From NCBI GenBank assembly GCA_902826815.1, contig CADEGF010000023.1:39316-93171 (forward strand): a stretch of 53,856 bases of DNA. Reading direction: 5' to 3'. This document shows positions 31,936 through 39,515 of this stretch, one piece after another. The notes beneath the pieces were generated by a model that searched no databases, had not been told where the DNA came from, and worked only from the letters and a program-made list of their open reading frames with translations. The stretch is from an uncultured Mycobacteriaceae bacterium. GTDB taxonomy: Bacteria; Actinomycetota; Actinomycetes; Mycobacteriales; Mycobacteriaceae. The translations under genes and the position numbers were made by a program. The stretch's first letter is position 1. Each line of letters begins with the position of its first letter.

Positions 31936-33051
31936 ATGGGTGATTCAACGCTGACGACTGAACTTGGCCGTGTGCTGGTCACCGGCGGCTCCGGCTTCGT
32001 CGGCGCCAACCTGGTGGCGGAACTGCTCGAGCGGGGCCACGAGGTGCGCTCGTTCGACCGCGCCCCATCCCCACTGCAAACGCATCCGCGGCTAGAGGTC
32101 ATCGAAGGCGACATCTGCGACAAAGACACCGTTGCGGCCTCTGTCGACGGGATCGACACCGTGTTCCACACCGCGGCGATCATCGACCTGATGGGTGGCT
32201 CGTCGGTCACCGACGAGTACCGCAGGCGCAGCTTCGCCGTCAACGTCGGCGGCACCGAGAACCTGGTCGTCGCCGCACAGCAAGCGGGCGTCAAGCGGTT
32301 CGTGTACACCGCGTCCAACAGCGTGGTGATGGGCGGCAAGCAGATCTCCAATGGTGACGAGACGCTGCCCTACACAGAGCGATTCAACGATCTCTACACC
32401 GAGACGAAGGTCGCAGCCGAGCAATTCGTCTTGTCGCAGAACGGCGTTCGCGACATGCTGACGTGCTCCATCCGGCCAAGCGGCATCTGGGGCCGCGGCG
32501 ACCAGACGATGTTCCGCAAGCTGTTCGAGAGCGTGCTGGCCGGGCACGTCAAGGTGCTTGTCGGTGGTAAGAACGCCAAACTGGATAACTCATACGTGCA
32601 CAACCTGATTCACGGGTTCATTCTGGCCGGCGAGCACCTGGTGCCCGGCGGTTCTGCGCCCGGGCAGGCGTACTTCATCAACGACGGTGAGCCGATCAAC
32701 ATGTTCGAGTTCTCCCGCCCCGTTGTGGAGGCGTGCGGACAGCGCTGGCCCAAGTTCCGCATCTCGGGCGCGTTCGTGCGGTGGATCATGACGATCTGGC
32801 AGTGGCTGCATTTCCGCGTCGGGCTGCCGAAGCCGCCGTTCGAGCCGCTCGCTGTCGAGCGCCTGTACCTCGACAACTACTTCTCCATCGCCAAGGCCCA
32901 GCGCGATCTCGGCTACCGCCCGCTGTTCACCACAGACCGGGCCATGGGTGACTGCCTGCCCTATTACACCGCGCTGTTCGAGCAGATGAAGGTGCAGACG
33001 CACGGCGACCATCGGGTGGAAGCCGTCACGGCGACGCACCCGGCGGGCTGA
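31936..33051 (+). CDS. hsd: 3-beta-hydroxysteroid dehydrogenase/isomerase
   Basis: A 371-residue extended SDR. The NAD-binding motif VTGGSGFVGANLVAELLERG (residues 15-34) is followed by VFHTAAIIDL, and a catalytic Tyr-Lys in DLYTETKVAAEQF with Ser in TASNSVV. The C-terminal part (FRVGLPKPPFEPLAVERLYLDNYFS) matches steroid-type 3-beta-HSDs. The enzyme oxidises cholesterol-type 3-beta-ols to 3-keto-4-ene products, the first ring step. Position after xseB matches Rv1106c. Regulation by KstR is predicted from the operator. Confidence 0.92.
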   Translation: MGDSTLTTELGRVLVTGGSGFVGANLVAELLERGHEVRSFDRAPSPLQTHPRLEVIEGDICDKDTVAASVDGIDTVFHTAAIIDLMGGSSVTDEYRRRSFAVNVGGTENLVVAAQQAGVKRFVYTASNSVVMGGKQISNGDETLPYTERFNDLYTETKVAAEQFVLSQNGVRDMLTCSIRPSGIWGRGDQTMFRKLFESVLAGHVKVLVGGKNAKLDNSYVHNLIHGFILAGEHLVPGGSAPGQAYFINDGEPINMFEFSRPVVEACGQRWPKFRISGAFVRWIMTIWQWLHFRVGLPKPPFEPLAVERLYLDNYFSIAKAQRDLGYRPLFTTDRAMGDCLPYYTALFEQMKVQTHGDHRVEAVTATHPAG

Positions 33052-33055
33052 TCTG

Positions 33056-33334
33056 TCAGTTGGTCAGGTGGACCGGGTGCCTGGTCACGGCCTCGATCCG
33101 GGAACCCGCGCGGTGAAGTAGGTCCGTGCCCAGTGCAATGAGTGCACGGGCCGCGGCAATCTCCTCGCCGATCATCGGCTGGCTGATGTCCGACGGGTTG
33201 CGGAAGGCGTCCCCGATGGCAATCATTTCGCCGTCGTCACCGAGTCGCGCCCGGACCGTCGCATGCGTATGCGTCGCGTCCTCGTCGAACTGGATGTCGA
33301 GATGCCAGTCGTTGTCGGTCGCTCTGTCGTGCAT
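33056..33334 (-). CDS. DUF1876 protein (Rv1738/Rv2632c-like)
   Basis: A 92-residue protein with HLDIQFDEDATHTHATVRARL, then SDISQPMIGEEIAAARALIALG. This is the DUF1876 fold seen in Rv1738 and Rv2632c, which are linked to dormancy and resemble ribosome-hibernation factors. ATG 33334 has GGAAGG upstream; the longer frame to 33556 is rejected. I saw no DosR box in the 163 bp to the sulfatase gene. Divergent from the sulfatase operon. Confidence 0.78.
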   Translation of the reverse strand: MHDRATDNDWHLDIQFDEDATHTHATVRARLGDDGEMIAIGDAFRNPSDISQPMIGEEIAAARALIALGTDLLHRAGSRIEAVTRHPVHLTN

Positions 33335-33497
33335 ATTGCCGCCTTCCCGCCTACAGCGTGCGCTATCGAGCCGACCGCAGCCCACGGTTCCGCAAATTTT
33401 CACTGGCAGCCTGCTGAAGCACTCACTTTTGCAGTCCGCACCTGCATAAGGTTGTACCGCACGATTCAAACAACGACGTGAATCGAAGGGGCACAAC

Positions 33498-35048
33498 ATG
33501 CCTGACGGCAAGCCGAACATTCTGGTCATCTGGGGCGATGACATCGGTATCAGCAACCTCAGCTGTTACAGCGACGGTCTCATGGGCTACCGCACACCGA
33601 ACATCGACCGCATCGCCAACGAAGGCATGCGGTTCACCGACTCCTACGGTGAGCAAAGCTGTACCGCAGGCCGCGCAGCCTTCATCAGTGGGCAAAGCGT
33701 GTACCGCACCGGAATGAGCAAGGTCGGTATGCCGGGCGTGGACATCGGCTGGGCAGCAGAAGATCCCACCATCGCCGAACTCCTCAAGCCGCTCGGTTAC
33801 GCGACAGGCCAGTTCGGCAAAAACCACTTCGGCGACCTCAACAAGTACCTGCCGACCGTGCACGGCTTTGACGAGTTCTACGGCAATCTCTATCACCTGA
33901 ACGCCGAGGAGGAGCCGGAGAGCGCCGACTACCCGCATAAGGATCAGTTCCCGCGGCTCTACGAATTCGCCCTGCCCCGCGGTGTGCTGGACTGCAAGGC
34001 TCTTGACGAAGACTCGACCGAGCCTGATGACCCGAAGTTCGGGCCGGTCGGCAAGCAGACGATCGAGGACACCGGGCCGCTCAACGCCAAGCGGATGGAG
34101 ACCATCGACGACGACGTCGCCGACCGCACGGTCGACTACATCAAGAGGCAGCACGCCGAGGGCAATCCGTTCTTCGTCTGGTGCAACTTCACCCATATGC
34201 ACCTCTACACCCACACCAAGCCGGAGAGCGTGGGGCAGGCCGGCCTGTGGCAGTCGCCGTACCACGACACGATGATCGACCACGACCGCAACGTGGGCAC
34301 GGTGCTCGACGCGCTCGACGAACTCGGGATCGCCGACGACACCATCGTCATCTATTCGACCGACAACGGTCCGCATCGCAACACCTGGCCCGACGGCGGC
34401 ACCACGCCGTTTCGCAGCGAGAAGGACACCAACTGGGAGGGTGCATTCCGGGTCCCTGAACTGATCCGGTGGCCAGGCAAGATCGAAGCCGGCTCGATCT
34501 CGAACGAGATCATCCAGCACCACGACTGGCTGCCCACTCTGCTGGCCGCGGCCGGCGAGCCCGACATCATCGAAAAACTCAAGAAGGGTCATACGGCCGG
34601 CGCGGACGGCAAGACCGACTACAAGGTGCACATCGACGGGTTCAACCTGCTGCCCTATCTGACCGGCGAGGTCGAAGCGAGTCCCCGCCGCGGCTTCTTC
34701 TACTTCTCGGACGACGGCGACTTGGTGGCAATGCGCTTTGAGAACTGGAAGATCGTGTTCCTCGAGCAGCGTTGCCCGGGCACCCTCCAGGTCTGGGCTG
34801 AGCCGTTCACCCATCTTCGAGTGCCGAAGTTGTTCAACTTGCGGACCGATCCCTACGAATTCGCTGACATCACGTCGAACACTTACTACGAGTGGTTCTT
34901 CCGGCGGGACTACTTCATGATCTATATGACGGCGATGGCATCCAAGTTCCTTGAAACATTCGAGGATTTCCCGCCGCGGCACGAACCGGCCAGCTTCAAC
35001 ATCGACCACGCGGTCGAGAAGCTCGAGAAGTTCCTGGCACGGGACTAG
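33498..35048 (+). CDS. Arylsulfatase (type I, formylglycine)
   Basis: A 516-residue alkaline-phosphatase-superfamily sulfatase. The N-terminal metal Asp pair is in LVIWGDDIGISN, the formylglycine motif is SCTAGRAAF (Cys to be oxidised), then GKNHFGD (Lys), FTHMHLY, and the metal Asp-Asn in YSTDNGPHRNTWPDGG. No signal peptide is visible, so it acts in the cytoplasm. AGGGG precedes the ATG. Its Cys must be converted by a formylglycine-generating enzyme, which is encoded two genes later in the same coupled operon. Sulfate-ester substrate unknown. Confidence 0.92.
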   Translation: MPDGKPNILVIWGDDIGISNLSCYSDGLMGYRTPNIDRIANEGMRFTDSYGEQSCTAGRAAFISGQSVYRTGMSKVGMPGVDIGWAAEDPTIAELLKPLGYATGQFGKNHFGDLNKYLPTVHGFDEFYGNLYHLNAEEEPESADYPHKDQFPRLYEFALPRGVLDCKALDEDSTEPDDPKFGPVGKQTIEDTGPLNAKRMETIDDDVADRTVDYIKRQHAEGNPFFVWCNFTHMHLYTHTKPESVGQAGLWQSPYHDTMIDHDRNVGTVLDALDELGIADDTIVIYSTDNGPHRNTWPDGGTTPFRSEKDTNWEGAFRVPELIRWPGKIEAGSISNEIIQHHDWLPTLLAAAGEPDIIEKLKKGHTAGADGKTDYKVHIDGFNLLPYLTGEVEASPRRGFFYFSDDGDLVAMRFENWKIVFLEQRCPGTLQVWAEPFTHLRVPKLFNLRTDPYEFADITSNTYYEWFFRRDYFMIYMTAMASKFLETFEDFPPRHEPASFNIDHAVEKLEKFLARD

Positions 35049-35944
35049 TGCTCGAGTCATGGCACGACGGGCCCACAAAGTCGGCGGTCGTCGACTTCGT
35101 CGGCCGCGTTACCGCAGAAGGTGGCCCCGACTTCGTTGCGCCGGAAGCACGCGTCGCAGTCTTCGACAACGACGGCACCCTGTGGTGCGAGAAGCCGATG
35201 TACATCCAGCTCGACTTCCTGCTGCGCCGATTCAAGGAGCAGGCCGAGGCGGATCCGTCGCTGCGAGACCAGCAGCCGTACAAGGCCGCCGTTACAGGCG
35301 ACCTGAAGTGGCTCGGCGACGCGGTCACCAAGCACTACCAGGGAGACGACGCCGACCTGAAACCGCTTATGGCAGCGATACTCAAGGCCCATCACGAGAT
35401 CACAGTCGAGGAGCACGCCAGCAGGGTCAATGCGTTCTTCGCCGAAGCCGAGCATCCGACGCTGGGCCGACCGTATACGTCATGCGGGTATGCGCCGATG
35501 GTTGAACTGCTCCGCTATTTGGAGGCCAGCGGTTTCACTTGTTACATCGTGTCCGGCGGCGGCCGGGATTTCATGCGTCCGGTGACCAGCGCGCTCTACG
35601 CGATACCACCGGAGCGGGTTGTCGGCAGTACCGTTGGTCTTGTCTACCGCGATGGACACCTGTACACGACAGACCAGCCGGAGTTTCTCGACGACGGGCC
35701 CATCAAGCCGGTGCGGCTGTGGAGCCGGATCGGACGCCGACCGATATTGGCCGCAGGCAATTCCAACGGCGATATCGAAATGCTCGAGTTCACCAGTGGC
35801 CTTCGGCTATTGGTGTTGCACGATGACGCGGATCGCGAGTTCGACTACGTCGCAGGCGCAGAGAAGTCGCTGGATCAGGCGAAGAGTGATGGCTGGACCG
35901 TCGTCAGCATGAAGAACGACTGGACGACCGTCTTCGGTGACTAG
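35048..35944 (+). CDS. HAD-superfamily phosphatase
   Basis: A 298-residue haloacid-dehalogenase-type phosphatase. Motif I is VFDNDGTLW, motif II the Ser in YIVSGGGRDFM, motif III the Lys in GPIKPVRLW, and motif IV the acidic pair in AGNSNGDIEML. It overlaps the sulfatase stop by 1 bp (TAGTG) and overlaps the FGE gene by 8 bp, so it is fixed in the sulfatase operon. It may remove a phosphate from the same substrate class the sulfatase attacks. Confidence 0.85.
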   Translation: MLESWHDGPTKSAVVDFVGRVTAEGGPDFVAPEARVAVFDNDGTLWCEKPMYIQLDFLLRRFKEQAEADPSLRDQQPYKAAVTGDLKWLGDAVTKHYQGDDADLKPLMAAILKAHHEITVEEHASRVNAFFAEAEHPTLGRPYTSCGYAPMVELLRYLEASGFTCYIVSGGGRDFMRPVTSALYAIPPERVVGSTVGLVYRDGHLYTTDQPEFLDDGPIKPVRLWSRIGRRPILAAGNSNGDIEMLEFTSGLRLLVLHDDADREFDYVAGAEKSLDQAKSDGWTVVSMKNDWTTVFGD

Positions 35945-36836
35945 CGATCTCGTCCGAATTCCCGCGCAGGCTTCCGTCGTCGGGTCCGACGCGCACTATC
36001 CAGAGGAGGGACCCGCGCACCCCGTCAGCGTCGACGAGTTCTGGATCCAGCCCCGTGCGGTGACCAACGCGGAATTCGCCGAATTCGTCGACGCCACAGG
36101 CTATGTCACGGTGGCGGAACGAACACTGAATCCCGATGACTTCCCCGATGCGCCGGCAGAGAACCTTCAGCCGGGGTCGATGGTGTTCACCCGCACGCAG
36201 GGGCCAGTCGACTTGCGGCACATGAGTCAGTGGTGGGCGTGGACGCCCGGCGCGTCCTGGCGGCATCCCGTCGGGCCGCACTCGTCGATCGACAAGCGCG
36301 CGAACCATCCTGTGGTGCACATCGCTTACCAGGATGCCGAAAGCTACGCAGACTGGGCGGGTCTCGCGTTGCCGACGGAGGCCGAGTGGGAGGTTGCCGC
36401 CCGCGGCGGACTCGAGGCCGCGACGTACACGTGGGGCGACGAACCCGAGCAGGGCCAACGGCTGGCGAACTACTGGCACGGCGACTTCCCCTGGCGCCCC
36501 GATGCCGGTTACGGCCGTACCACGCCCGTCGGCAGCTTCCCGGCCAACGATTACGGCCTGTTCGACATGGCGGGCAACGTCTGGGAGTGGACCTCTGACT
36601 GGTATGCCGACACCCGCGAGGGCGACCCGTGTTGTGAGGCAGGCAGTTACGACCCGCAGCAGTCGCAGTTCAAGGTGCCGCGCAAGGTGATCAAGGGCGG
36701 TTCATTTCTGTGCGCCGACAACTACTGCCTGCGCTATCGCCCCGCCGCCCGCAGGCCGCAGATGATCGACACCGGGATGAGCCATCTCGGCTTTCGCTGC
36801 GTTACGCGGACACCACCTGGAAAGATGCACGCGTGA
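35937..36836 (+). CDS. Formylglycine-generating enzyme (sulfatase maturase)
   Basis: A 299-residue FGE/SUMF1-type oxidase. The fold markers are WIQPRAVTNAEFAEFV, LPTEAEWEVAARGG, DMAGNVWEWTSDWY and KVIKGGSFLCADNYCLRYRP. The last carries the copper-binding active-site Cys pair (C..YC). It oxidises the Cys of CxAGR in sulfatases using O2. GTG start overlaps the HAD gene's stop region. It is equivalent in role to Rv0712. Its presence here makes the sulfatase operon self-sufficient. Confidence 0.92.
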   Translation: MTSDLVRIPAQASVVGSDAHYPEEGPAHPVSVDEFWIQPRAVTNAEFAEFVDATGYVTVAERTLNPDDFPDAPAENLQPGSMVFTRTQGPVDLRHMSQWWAWTPGASWRHPVGPHSSIDKRANHPVVHIAYQDAESYADWAGLALPTEAEWEVAARGGLEAATYTWGDEPEQGQRLANYWHGDFPWRPDAGYGRTTPVGSFPANDYGLFDMAGNVWEWTSDWYADTREGDPCCEAGSYDPQQSQFKVPRKVIKGGSFLCADNYCLRYRPAARRPQMIDTGMSHLGFRCVTRTPPGKMHA

Positions 36837-38173
36837 AGGACAGCGGCGTTCACTACGCACGCAACGGCTCGGTACGCCTTGCCTACCGCGCATTCGGTGA
36901 GGGCGACACCACACTGATTTGGATACCCGGCTGGATCAGTAATGCCGACATCCTGACCGCCCCGGACATGCCGTTCCAGGCCTTCCTTGACGAACTTGGC
37001 CGTGGCAACCAGCTGGTCGCGTGGGACAAGCGCGGCACCGGCCTTTCGGATCCGGTGACCCATGTCCCGCCGTTGGACGAGCGGATGGACGACCTGCACG
37101 CGGTGATGGACGCAGTAGGCGCAGACTCCGCGGCGCTGTTCGGTGTCTCAGAGGGCGGCCCGATGAGCATCCTGTTCGCCGCGACCTACCCTGAGCGCGT
37201 TGAGTCATTAGCGCTCTACGGCACGCTGGCCCGGTTCACTCCCGAGTTGCCGGATCACCCATGGGGTTTCACCACCGATCAGACGACTACGATCATCAAC
37301 GAGATCGAAAATCATTGGGGCGAAGGCGCACTCGCCGACCTGTTCTTCGGCGAAGTCGCGCGGATGCCCGGGTTTCTGGATTTCTATGGCCGTATTCAGC
37401 GGTTGGGAGCAAGCCCTGCGATGTGCCGCATGCTCTGGCATGCACTGTTGGAAAGTGACGTACGAGGCGTGCTGGGCTCGGTTCACACGCCGGCTCTCGT
37501 ACTGGGCCGGGCCGACGACCACGTGGCACCCATCGACGGTGCGCGCGCTCTGGCGGCGGCCATGCCCAATGCCCGCTTCCTCGAACTGCCCAACGGTCCG
37601 CATGGGCTGATGGATGAGGTATTGGCCAGCGAGGTGGTGAACTTCGTCCTCGGCAAACCTGCCGACGAATCGAGCGAACGCGTCCTTTCGACGGTTTTGT
37701 TCACCGACATCGTCGGGTCGACGGAACGAGTCAGTTCGCAGGGCGATGCGCAATGGCGTCGCCAGCTCGATGCACACGACAAGCTCGCCGACTGGCTCGT
37801 CGACAAGTACGGGGGGCGACGCGTCAAGCACACCGGCGGCGGCATGTTCGCGTTATTCGACGGCCCGACCAGGGCGGCGCGCTGCGCCCTCGAGATGGTT
37901 CCCGCACTCGCCGCGCGGGGTACCAACATCCGCGTTGGCGTCCACACCGGGGAATGCGAGCGGCGTGGCGACGAGTGGAGCGGGTTGGCCGTCCACGTCG
38001 GTGCGCGCATCGGCGCGATGGCGGGCGCCAACGAAGTGCTCGCCAGCCGAACCGTCCGCGACCTGTCGGCGGGATCCGGACTGACGTTCGACCCACTCGG
38101 TGCACAACGGCTCAAGGGCATCGCCGAGGAGGTCGAGGTCTTCCGGGTGACAACGCCGCCCGCTGACCCGTGA
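36833..38173 (+). CDS. Alpha/beta-hydrolase fused to a degenerate class III cyclase
   Basis: A 446-residue fusion. Residues 1-285 are an alpha/beta-hydrolase with Ser in GVSEGGPMS and late His in PNGPHGLM. Residues 285-440 are a cyclase homology domain. The first metal Asp is present (FTDIVGST, D292), but the position of the second metal Asp is Gly336 in KHTGGGMFALF, where active enzymes read GDG. The transition-state Asn is His in GLAVHVGARI. This is the Rv1900c (LipJ) architecture, known for altered active-site residues. It overlaps the FGE stop by 4 bp. It may sense or bind a nucleotide rather than make cAMP. Confidence 0.85.
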   Translation: MKDSGVHYARNGSVRLAYRAFGEGDTTLIWIPGWISNADILTAPDMPFQAFLDELGRGNQLVAWDKRGTGLSDPVTHVPPLDERMDDLHAVMDAVGADSAALFGVSEGGPMSILFAATYPERVESLALYGTLARFTPELPDHPWGFTTDQTTTIINEIENHWGEGALADLFFGEVARMPGFLDFYGRIQRLGASPAMCRMLWHALLESDVRGVLGSVHTPALVLGRADDHVAPIDGARALAAAMPNARFLELPNGPHGLMDEVLASEVVNFVLGKPADESSERVLSTVLFTDIVGSTERVSSQGDAQWRRQLDAHDKLADWLVDKYGGRRVKHTGGGMFALFDGPTRAARCALEMVPALAARGTNIRVGVHTGECERRGDEWSGLAVHVGARIGAMAGANEVLASRTVRDLSAGSGLTFDPLGAQRLKGIAEEVEVFRVTTPPADP

Positions 38174-38179
38174 AACGGA

Positions 38180-38641
38180 TCAGGCTTCGGCGGCCTTCTT
38201 GATCGCCGCAAGCGTGGCGGGTATGCCGGTCTTGGCCGCGTCGCTGCGTTGCTCGATCTGCGCCTCGGCATCGGCGCCGTACCGCTCGTGGAACCCCGCG
38301 ATGCCTGCGGGGAGGAACTCCCACGATTCAGTGAGCCTGGTGCCGTCGCCTTCGGGCTCGAGCGTGTAGCCCCAGTTCACCCAGCCGTTGTTCACCTGCC
38401 ACCCGAACTTCCGGCCGGGATCGGCGGCCACCACCTGGCTGCGGGTCTCCCATGTCCGCGCCGGGGTCTCGTTGCGCCCGGTGAACCACGCGCCCACCTG
38501 CGGTCCTGCGCCGTCGTCCCACCAGCAGGCCTTGCAGACAGGGCTCCACTCCCCCGTCCTCGTCACGTCGGACACCAGCGCGTACAGCTTGTCGGGCGGC
38601 ACCGCCACGAAGATCGAATCGGAGCGCTTGAGTTCAGTCAC
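38180..38641 (-). CDS. SRPBCC-family (START-like) protein
   Basis: A 153-residue ligand-binding protein of the polyketide-cyclase/START superfamily. It opens with SIFVAVPPDKLYALVSDVTRTGEWSPV and has a deep-cavity strand pattern (FGWQVNNGWVNWGYTLEPEGDGTRLTE split over residues 82-108). Such proteins bind hydrophobic ligands, including sterol-like ones. It ends 7 bp from the convergent cyclase fusion and is divergent from the SDR behind the KstR-type site, so it may share sterol control. Confidence 0.8.
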   Translation of the reverse strand: MTELKRSDSIFVAVPPDKLYALVSDVTRTGEWSPVCKACWWDDGAGPQVGAWFTGRNETPARTWETRSQVVAADPGRKFGWQVNNGWVNWGYTLEPEGDGTRLTESWEFLPAGIAGFHERYGADAEAQIEQRSDAAKTGIPATLAAIKKAAEA

Positions 38642-38705
38642 GGGTCGAGTCTGCCAGTCGGTAATCGGTCGCGGCTATTGCCTTTTCGGCGCCCGGGTGT
38701 GAAGT

Positions 38706-38741: not shown

Positions 38742-39515
38742 ATGTGCAACAGTAGCGACCGGATCGCCGTGGTCATCGGCGCCGCATCCGGGATCGGCTG
38801 GGCGAGTGCACGCGCGCTGGCGGCCGACGGCTGCCGCGTGATGCTCGCGGACCGCAACGGCGACGGCGCCCGCGCCAAGGCCGCCGAACTCGGCGAACCG
38901 CACACCGCCGCGGAAGTCGACGTCACCGACGAAGCGTCGGTACAACGCCTCTTCGACGACATCGGCCCGCTCGACGTCGTGGTCAACTGCGCGGGCTTCG
39001 GCAGCCTCGGGCTGATCACCGATCTGGCGGTCGAGGAGTTCCGCTCCGTCATCGACGTCTGCCTGAACGGCTCGTTCATCGTCGCCAAGCACGCGGGCCA
39101 GAAGCTCCGCGCGGGCGGCTCGCTCGTGACGATCAGCTCGTTGAACGGCCGGCAGGCTGCGGTCGGCATGAGCGCCTACTGCTCGGCCAAGGCGGGGGTC
39201 TCGATGCTGACCCAGGTCGCTGCTCTGGAGTTGGGGCCGCGCGGGATCCGGGTCAACGCGATCTCCCCCGGCTTCGTCGATACCCCGCTCACGGAGGGCT
39301 CGTATCTCGTGCCCGGCCTCGTCGAGGACTATGTCGAGAACACCGCGCTCGGCCGCGCAGGTAAGCCGGAGGAGATCGCCGACGCCGTGGTCTTCCTGTG
39401 CTCGCCGAAGTCGGCATGGCTGACCGGTGAGGTGCTCGACCTCAACGGCGGCGCACACCTCAAACGCTATCCGGACGTGCTCGGCCATGTCATGAAACTG
39501 GCGGAGGCACAGTGA
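38742..39515 (+). CDS. Short-chain dehydrogenase (SDR), predicted KstR-controlled
   Basis: A 257-residue classical SDR. Cofactor motif GAASGIGWASARALAADG, NAG-type motif VVNCAGFGSLG, catalytic Ser in TISSLNG, and Tyr-Lys in SAYCSAKAGVSML. C-terminal LNGGAHLKRYPD is typical. The enzyme oxidises or reduces a hydroxyl/keto group with NAD(P). The perfect KstR-type site upstream suggests a sterol or steroid side-chain substrate. GAAAGG precedes the ATG. The second SDR follows 25 bp later. Confidence 0.85.
   Translation: MCNSSDRIAVVIGAASGIGWASARALAADGCRVMLADRNGDGARAKAAELGEPHTAAEVDVTDEASVQRLFDDIGPLDVVVNCAGFGSLGLITDLAVEEFRSVIDVCLNGSFIVAKHAGQKLRAGGSLVTISSLNGRQAAVGMSAYCSAKAGVSMLTQVAALELGPRGIRVNAISPGFVDTPLTEGSYLVPGLVEDYVENTALGRAGKPEEIADAVVFLCSPKSAWLTGEVLDLNGGAHLKRYPDVLGHVMKLAEAQ

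Follow-up and report, generated by a model that had tools for sequence, protein, structure and literature searches.

Which genes of a tightly packed sulfatase locus belong together by function? The question is raised by a DNA stretch from an uncultured Mycobacteriaceae bacterium (assembly GCA_902826815.1, contig CADEGF010000023.1), of which 53,856 nucleotides were analysed and are here called the window. In its open reading frame (ORF) listing, four plus-strand genes fill positions 33498-38173 and overlap, in order, by 1, 8 and 4 bp. An initial annotation had named a sulfatase, a HAD phosphatase, a formylglycine-generating enzyme (FGE) and an alpha/beta-hydrolase fused to a cyclase-like domain. 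The ORF coordinates confirmed the layout, and Pfam matches bore out the four identities:

33498..35048, + strand, FGly-type (S1) sulfatase, 516 aa, ATG start; PF00884
35048..35944, + strand, HAD phosphatase-fold enzyme, 298 aa, GTG start; PF12710
35937..36836, + strand, FGE, 299 aa, GTG start; PF03781
36833..38173, + strand, alpha/beta-hydrolase and class III cyclase-like fusion, 446 aa from GTG 36833; PF00561 and PF00211

The last ORF as listed runs longer, from 36710, and the length of 446 aa counts from GTG 36833.

Judged by comparison of sequences, the conserved unit is three genes (sulfatase-HAD-FGE) and not four. We propose to read 33498-36836 as an accessory cassette by which sulfate esters are hydrolysed in the cytosol, with the HAD enzyme as a regular partner on the same substrate pool, and give this reading a probability of roughly 0.6. 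The FGE would convert Cys55 of the sulfatase into formylglycine by oxidation; the matured sulfatase would split an organic sulfate, and the released sulfate would feed assimilation. The HAD enzyme would be the third partner, working in the compartment of the sulfatase and on its substrate pool. Since its fold resembles phosphorylcholine phosphatase, it is most likely a phosphomonoesterase whose substrate is the same alcohol bearing phosphate in place of sulfate.

Sulfatase, maturase and the enzyme between them

The sulfatase matched PF00884 with an E value of 1.4e-48 (166 bits; cut-off 25). Its formylglycine residue, Cys55, lies within CTAGR 55-59, which fits the signature C-x-[AP]-x-R. Residues D14, D15, K108, H110, D289, N290 and K309 were placed by alignment to arylsulfatase structures and by motif positions, and we take their metal-binding and active-site roles to be those known from arylsulfatase A. 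Fold, signature, metal Asp/Asn and active-site Lys/His were all found, and the predicted protein belongs by these features to the FGly-type (S1) sulfatases. The motif EQSCTAGR was present in 107 of 107 sulfatase matches of at least 60% identity (some genomes counted twice). The window sulfatase carries no export signal. Choline sulfatase was considered and rejected, as the score of 79 bits lies below the NCBIfam TIGR03417 cut-off of 433.45.

For the FGE, the PF03781 match reached E 9.5e-76 (255.2 bits; cut-off 23.3), and solved FGE-type chains matched with E 3.7e-62. The catalytic cysteine pair C259/C264 lies within GGSFLCADNYC 254-264 and was kept in 86 of 86 matches of at least 60% identity, again with some genomes counted twice. 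Domain and cysteine pair together place the protein among the predicted formylglycine-generating enzymes. Sulfatases with their own maturases are textbook knowledge. The window shares with systems of an S1 sulfatase and a dedicated FGE (SUMF1 family) the CTAGR motif, the metal residues, the FGE cysteine pair and the adjoining FGE gene; unlike in known pairs, a HAD enzyme sits between the two.

This HAD enzyme matched PF12710 (E 2.6e-13) and has the motifs D40-N-D42, S169, K220 and GNSNGD 237-242. In 50 sequences D40, D42, K220, G237, N238, G241 and D242 were invariant, and S169 was present in at least 90%. The motif set of HAD phosphatases (Asp-x-Asp, Ser/Thr, Lys and a C-terminal acidic motif) is complete, and the protein belongs by these motifs to the predicted HAD phosphatases. 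The closest characterised fold is phosphorylcholine phosphatase; PchP of Pseudomonas aeruginosa (4as2) is 20% identical, and the enzyme studied here differs from it in being linked to sulfatases. By our reading of the motifs, the first Asp of the last PchP motif corresponds to Asn238. The choline-site residues of PchP are E42, E43 and YYY82-84 (PMC3170909). A further structural relative is the HAD protein 4ovy of Planctomyces limnophilus, whose entry title names no function.

Linkage of the HAD enzyme to sulfatases

The genome of the window is treated as mycobacterial, since its closest named relatives are Mycobacterium. Within this genus the search covered 148 genomes out of a larger group, and 59 had a HAD match: 57, including the window, at an identity of at least 63%, one at 46% (G126) and one in pieces (G067). 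The last two were set aside in a manual tally of how often HAD and FGE occur together. A cassette-type FGE (at least 68%) was found in 57 genomes, 56 of which also had the HAD gene. The discordant genomes were G044 (HAD without cassette-type FGE) and G110 (cassette-type FGE without HAD). Of the 148 genomes, 144 had an FGE-family match of some kind; among the matches listed, those not of the cassette type were at about 52-59% identity.

The neighbourhoods of 56 HAD-bearing relatives, the window excluded, showed the order sulfatase-HAD-FGE in 48, a sulfatase directly upstream of HAD in 50 and an FGE directly downstream in 54. With gene starts projected from the alignment, the sulfatase/HAD spacing in the mycobacterial cassettes measured was -1 to +11 bp, with one of +38, and the HAD/FGE spacing ranged from an overlap of a few bases to a 93-bp gap. 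By these distances, the tight packing of the three genes is more than chance, and they may be co-transcribed. A scan of 33000-38700 gave no match to a sigma-70-type promoter or an intrinsic terminator, which carries little weight in mycobacteria. The cassette sulfatases formed two groups in a FastTree tree, of which the window has type 1 only, in a clade of 43 rows; tandem sulfatases occurred in 14 of the 56 relatives, the copy closer to that of the window coming first.

Beyond the genus, named loci were taken as the best 80 of 574 confirmed ones, so that rates favour near relatives: judged by record title, 26 are from Mycobacterium and 54 from outside, though two of the latter from actinobacteria (L116 and L126) may be mycobacterial. 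The profiles for sulfatase, FGE and the sulfate permease SulP derive from these loci themselves and can overlook other types. Within 4 kb of HAD, the Mycobacterium loci had a sulfatase in 24 cases and an FGE in 25. Of the 54 others, 35 had a sulfatase at up to 400 bp and 39 at up to 4 kb; for SulP the corresponding counts were 12 and 14, and 24 had an FGE within 4 kb. At least one of the three was found within 4 kb in 42/54 of these loci versus 0/19 in the control, which consisted of mycobacterial hydrolase-cyclase-family loci rather than randomly chosen genes from those taxa.

The arrangement varied. Rhodococcus oryzae, Nocardia mikamii, Humibacillus and Luteimonas have the order sulfatase-HAD-FGE, Cupriavidus and Pandoraea have FGE-HAD-sulfatase, and Agromyces and Oerskovia have long sulfatase-HAD-SulP. 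Two sulfatase classes, of ~515 aa and ~790 aa, were linked to HAD. On plasmids, a sulfatase or an FGE lay no more than 4 kb from HAD in 11 of 15 regions, which were picked by annotation and genus and not at random. A plasmid of Pantoea sp. At-9b carries, in annotated order, an alkyl sulfatase, an arylsulfatase, HAD and an anaerobic sulfatase maturase (anSME) instead of FGE. Distant HADs (37-43% identity) on plasmids of Rhizobium, Paracoccus and Pantoea (L211-L214) adjoin VWA-domain genes; three of these four also adjoin BatD or MoxR genes, and three have an FGE or arylsulfatase near.

A phylum sample, drawn more evenly than the named set, had HAD in 13/396 genomes, making it rare. Six of its nine HAD loci outside the genus had a sulfatase, FGE or SulP near; at least one locus, L198, comes from the same genome as the named locus L167.

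Several observations weigh against the HAD enzyme being a regular partner of the sulfatase. In the named set, sulfatase, FGE and SulP were all missing from the 4 kb on either side of HAD in 12/54 loci outside the genus and 1/26 inside. Three of the nine phylum-sample loci were unlinked (L201, L205 and L206, each near at least one contig end), as were four of the 15 plasmid regions with respect to sulfatase or FGE (Rahnella, Pantoea agglomerans, Rhodococcus and Streptomyces). Six of the 56 genus relatives had no close (at least 60%) upstream sulfatase, two of them at contig ends and one (L097) with a different sulfatase upstream, and the FGE was missing downstream in two. A cassette-like sulfatase without HAD was present in G057, G058, G110 and G147. 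Four loci of the genus (L107-L110, 39-44% identity) belong to a second HAD subfamily; one of them had sulfatases near, and L107-L109 lacked sulfatase, FGE and SulP alike within 4 kb. Finally, the likeness to PchP is one of fold.

The compartment of the proteins was judged solely from the hydrophobicity of N-termini at several candidate start codons each. Export-like or lipoprotein-like N-termini were found on both HAD and sulfatase in 8/9 proteobacterial loci (L184, L185, L186, L188, L192, L193, L194 and L196) and on neither in the ninth, Luteimonas L155. Neither was export-like in the actinobacterial loci L137, L141, L143 and L172, in L183 (Chloroflexota) or in the window. By its N-terminus the FGE would be exported or membrane-bound in L184, L185, L186 and L196, and not in L188, and its N-terminus in L193 is ambiguous.

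This shared compartment in the loci inspected would also fit a HAD enzyme that acts on the sulfatase itself, freeing the formylglycine site of phosphate or of a phosphorylated inhibitor as an accessory enzyme, regardless of substrate and maturase. Linkage of HAD to sulfatases of both lengths, and to FGE or an annotated anSME, points the same way. However, HAD adjoins SulP with no sulfatase detected nearby in L167 and, on a 4-kb contig, in L158, and we know of no precedent for a HAD enzyme clearing a sulfatase formylglycine site. We consider such a role unlikely. A more far-reaching suggestion, itself doubtful, is that HADs of this subfamily serve bacterial formylglycine-sulfatase systems in general as a third component not described before. 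Sulfatase function or the handling of the substrate would depend on it, and it would have accompanied sulfatases into different phyla and compartments and alongside either of two unrelated maturases.

The hydrolase-cyclase fusion

The fourth gene matched Abhydrolase_1 (E 6.9e-15) and Guanylate_cyc (E 8.5e-7). In the hydrolase half, the nucleophile S106 and the H257 motif are present. Class III cyclases bind metal by two Asp residues. In the cyclase half D292 is kept, and the position of the second metal Asp is G336 (GDG reads GGG), so that the window copy has one of the two. The other 37 rows of the alignment all have Asp at this position, and the window copy alone has Gly. In the window the cyclase half is probably impaired, though the Gly could also stem from a sequencing error.

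The cyclase half aligned to 1ybt (lipJ, Rv1900c) with E 1.5e-38. Rv1900c/LipJ has the same order of two domains, alpha/beta-hydrolase and then class III cyclase, but the window copy scored 284.5 bits against the cut-off of 800 of the LipJ equivalog NF058673, and its second metal Asp is replaced. It is thus related to that group and outside it: by these matches, the fusion is a diverged relative of Rv1900c/LipJ, of an already known type. LipJ is equated with Rv1900c in PMC10865251, and in Rv1900c, according to PMC4886424, His replaces the usual Asn and the enzyme may still be active.

A hydrolase-cyclase gene followed the FGE in one of the 56 genus relatives (G143, locus L032) and also in Mycobacterium sp. 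1274761.0 (L120), a locus of the named set. The four-gene order expected by the initial annotation thus held for the sulfatase-HAD-FGE part (48/56) and not for the fourth gene, and absence of that order from other genomes, which the annotation had itself named as contrary evidence, was nearly what we found for this gene. Window tiles 36901-38100 were unmatched in the cassette relatives L052, L112, L053 and L054, all four of which matched the FGE. At 19 other mycobacterial hydrolase-cyclase loci, 15-20 kb each, the profiles detected no sulfatase, FGE, HAD or SulP. From this distribution, the hydrolase-cyclase (36833-38173) is a passenger, inserted late behind the FGE.

The same gene had been taken to read out, as a cyclic-nucleotide signal, one pathway in which the four genes strip sulfate, phosphate and ester groups. 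The 4-bp overlap with the FGE, the intact nucleophile and His motifs of the hydrolase and the adjacency also in G143 and Mycobacterium sp. 1274761.0, which implies that the arrangement lasted in a small group, speak for this pathway. The near absence of the fourth gene from the relatives and the lack of sulfatases at its 19 homologue loci speak against it, and the readout is weakened further because GDG reads GGG in the window copy alone. A four-gene pathway is therefore highly improbable, and nucleotide readout was ruled out as the best reading of the fourth gene.

A variable slot and its borders

The cassette and the fourth gene lie between a 3b-HSD-family gene and an SDR gene, with a minus-strand gene just before the latter:

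31936..33051, + strand, 3b-HSD-family gene, left border of the slot; PF01073
38180..38641, - strand, SRPBCC/polyketide-cyclase-like gene, from profile match and neighbourhood comparison
38742..39515, + strand, SDR gene, right border of the slot, from profile match and neighbourhood comparison

The SRPBCC/polyketide-cyclase-like gene directly follows the FGE in some relatives without hydrolase-cyclase (e.g. L052 and L112). The variable slot between conserved blocks that had been suggested for this region was recovered, as 3b-HSD and SDR bracket differing content in other genomes. Elsewhere the slot contained a SulP sulfate permease, an alkyl sulfatase, a P450 with a TetR regulator, an SDR/epimerase, a SLAC1-type anion channel or a GGDEF-EAL protein. 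The GGDEF-EAL proteins, of ~770-810 aa, lay in the slot near the cassette in four mycobacterial loci (L087, L088, L095 and L098). In G067 (L111, 8117-9297) the cassette has decayed: HAD and FGE survive between 3b-HSD and SDR as mere pieces.

In the 8-kb stretches compared, 3b-HSD lay upstream in 49/56 cassette loci, SDR downstream in 47/56 and either in 51/56. These counts would fit a steroid-sulfate pathway in which the sulfatase frees 3-hydroxysteroids for the adjoining 3b-HSD and SDR. However, a 3b-HSD orthologue (at least 73%) is present in most of the 148 genomes whether or not they have the cassette, and genomes without HAD also have 3b-HSD and SDR close together (in G093 the matches are 124 bp apart). 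Because both genes also flank slots without a cassette, their adjacency says little; a steroid-sulfate pathway is improbable, and we claim no joint action of 3b-HSD with the cassette.

Compared with L032 (G143) and L052 (G145), the window showed a mosaic of identity along the locus. The HAD gene was closest to G145 (89%), and FGE (85%), 3b-HSD (88%) and SDR (93%) were closest to G143, which suggests recombination or differing losses inside the cassette. Together with the patchy spread in the phylum sample, the mosaic suggests transfer in blocks, and some HADs stand alone. Both points would suit a HAD gene that is a mere neighbour with no functional tie, held in place by economy of the operon and by horizontal transfer, but its linkage persists through changes of gene order, sulfatase class, maturase and compartment. 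A mere neighbour is decidedly improbable.

Among the listed titles and abstract openings of open-licence papers we found no description of a HAD-sulfatase partnership or of a sulfatase-HAD-maturase trio, an absence of little weight. As far as the comparisons reach, sulfatase, HAD and maturase are a real and widely conserved unit for sulfate-ester use, to which the hydrolase-cyclase was added in a few genomes. The analysis removes a tempting but weak idea, that of a neighbouring cyclase reading out the pathway. A phosphatase-fold HAD enzyme that accompanies sulfatases in Actinomycetota, Chloroflexota and Pseudomonadota points to a step in the bacterial use of sulfate esters that is still missing from the picture.

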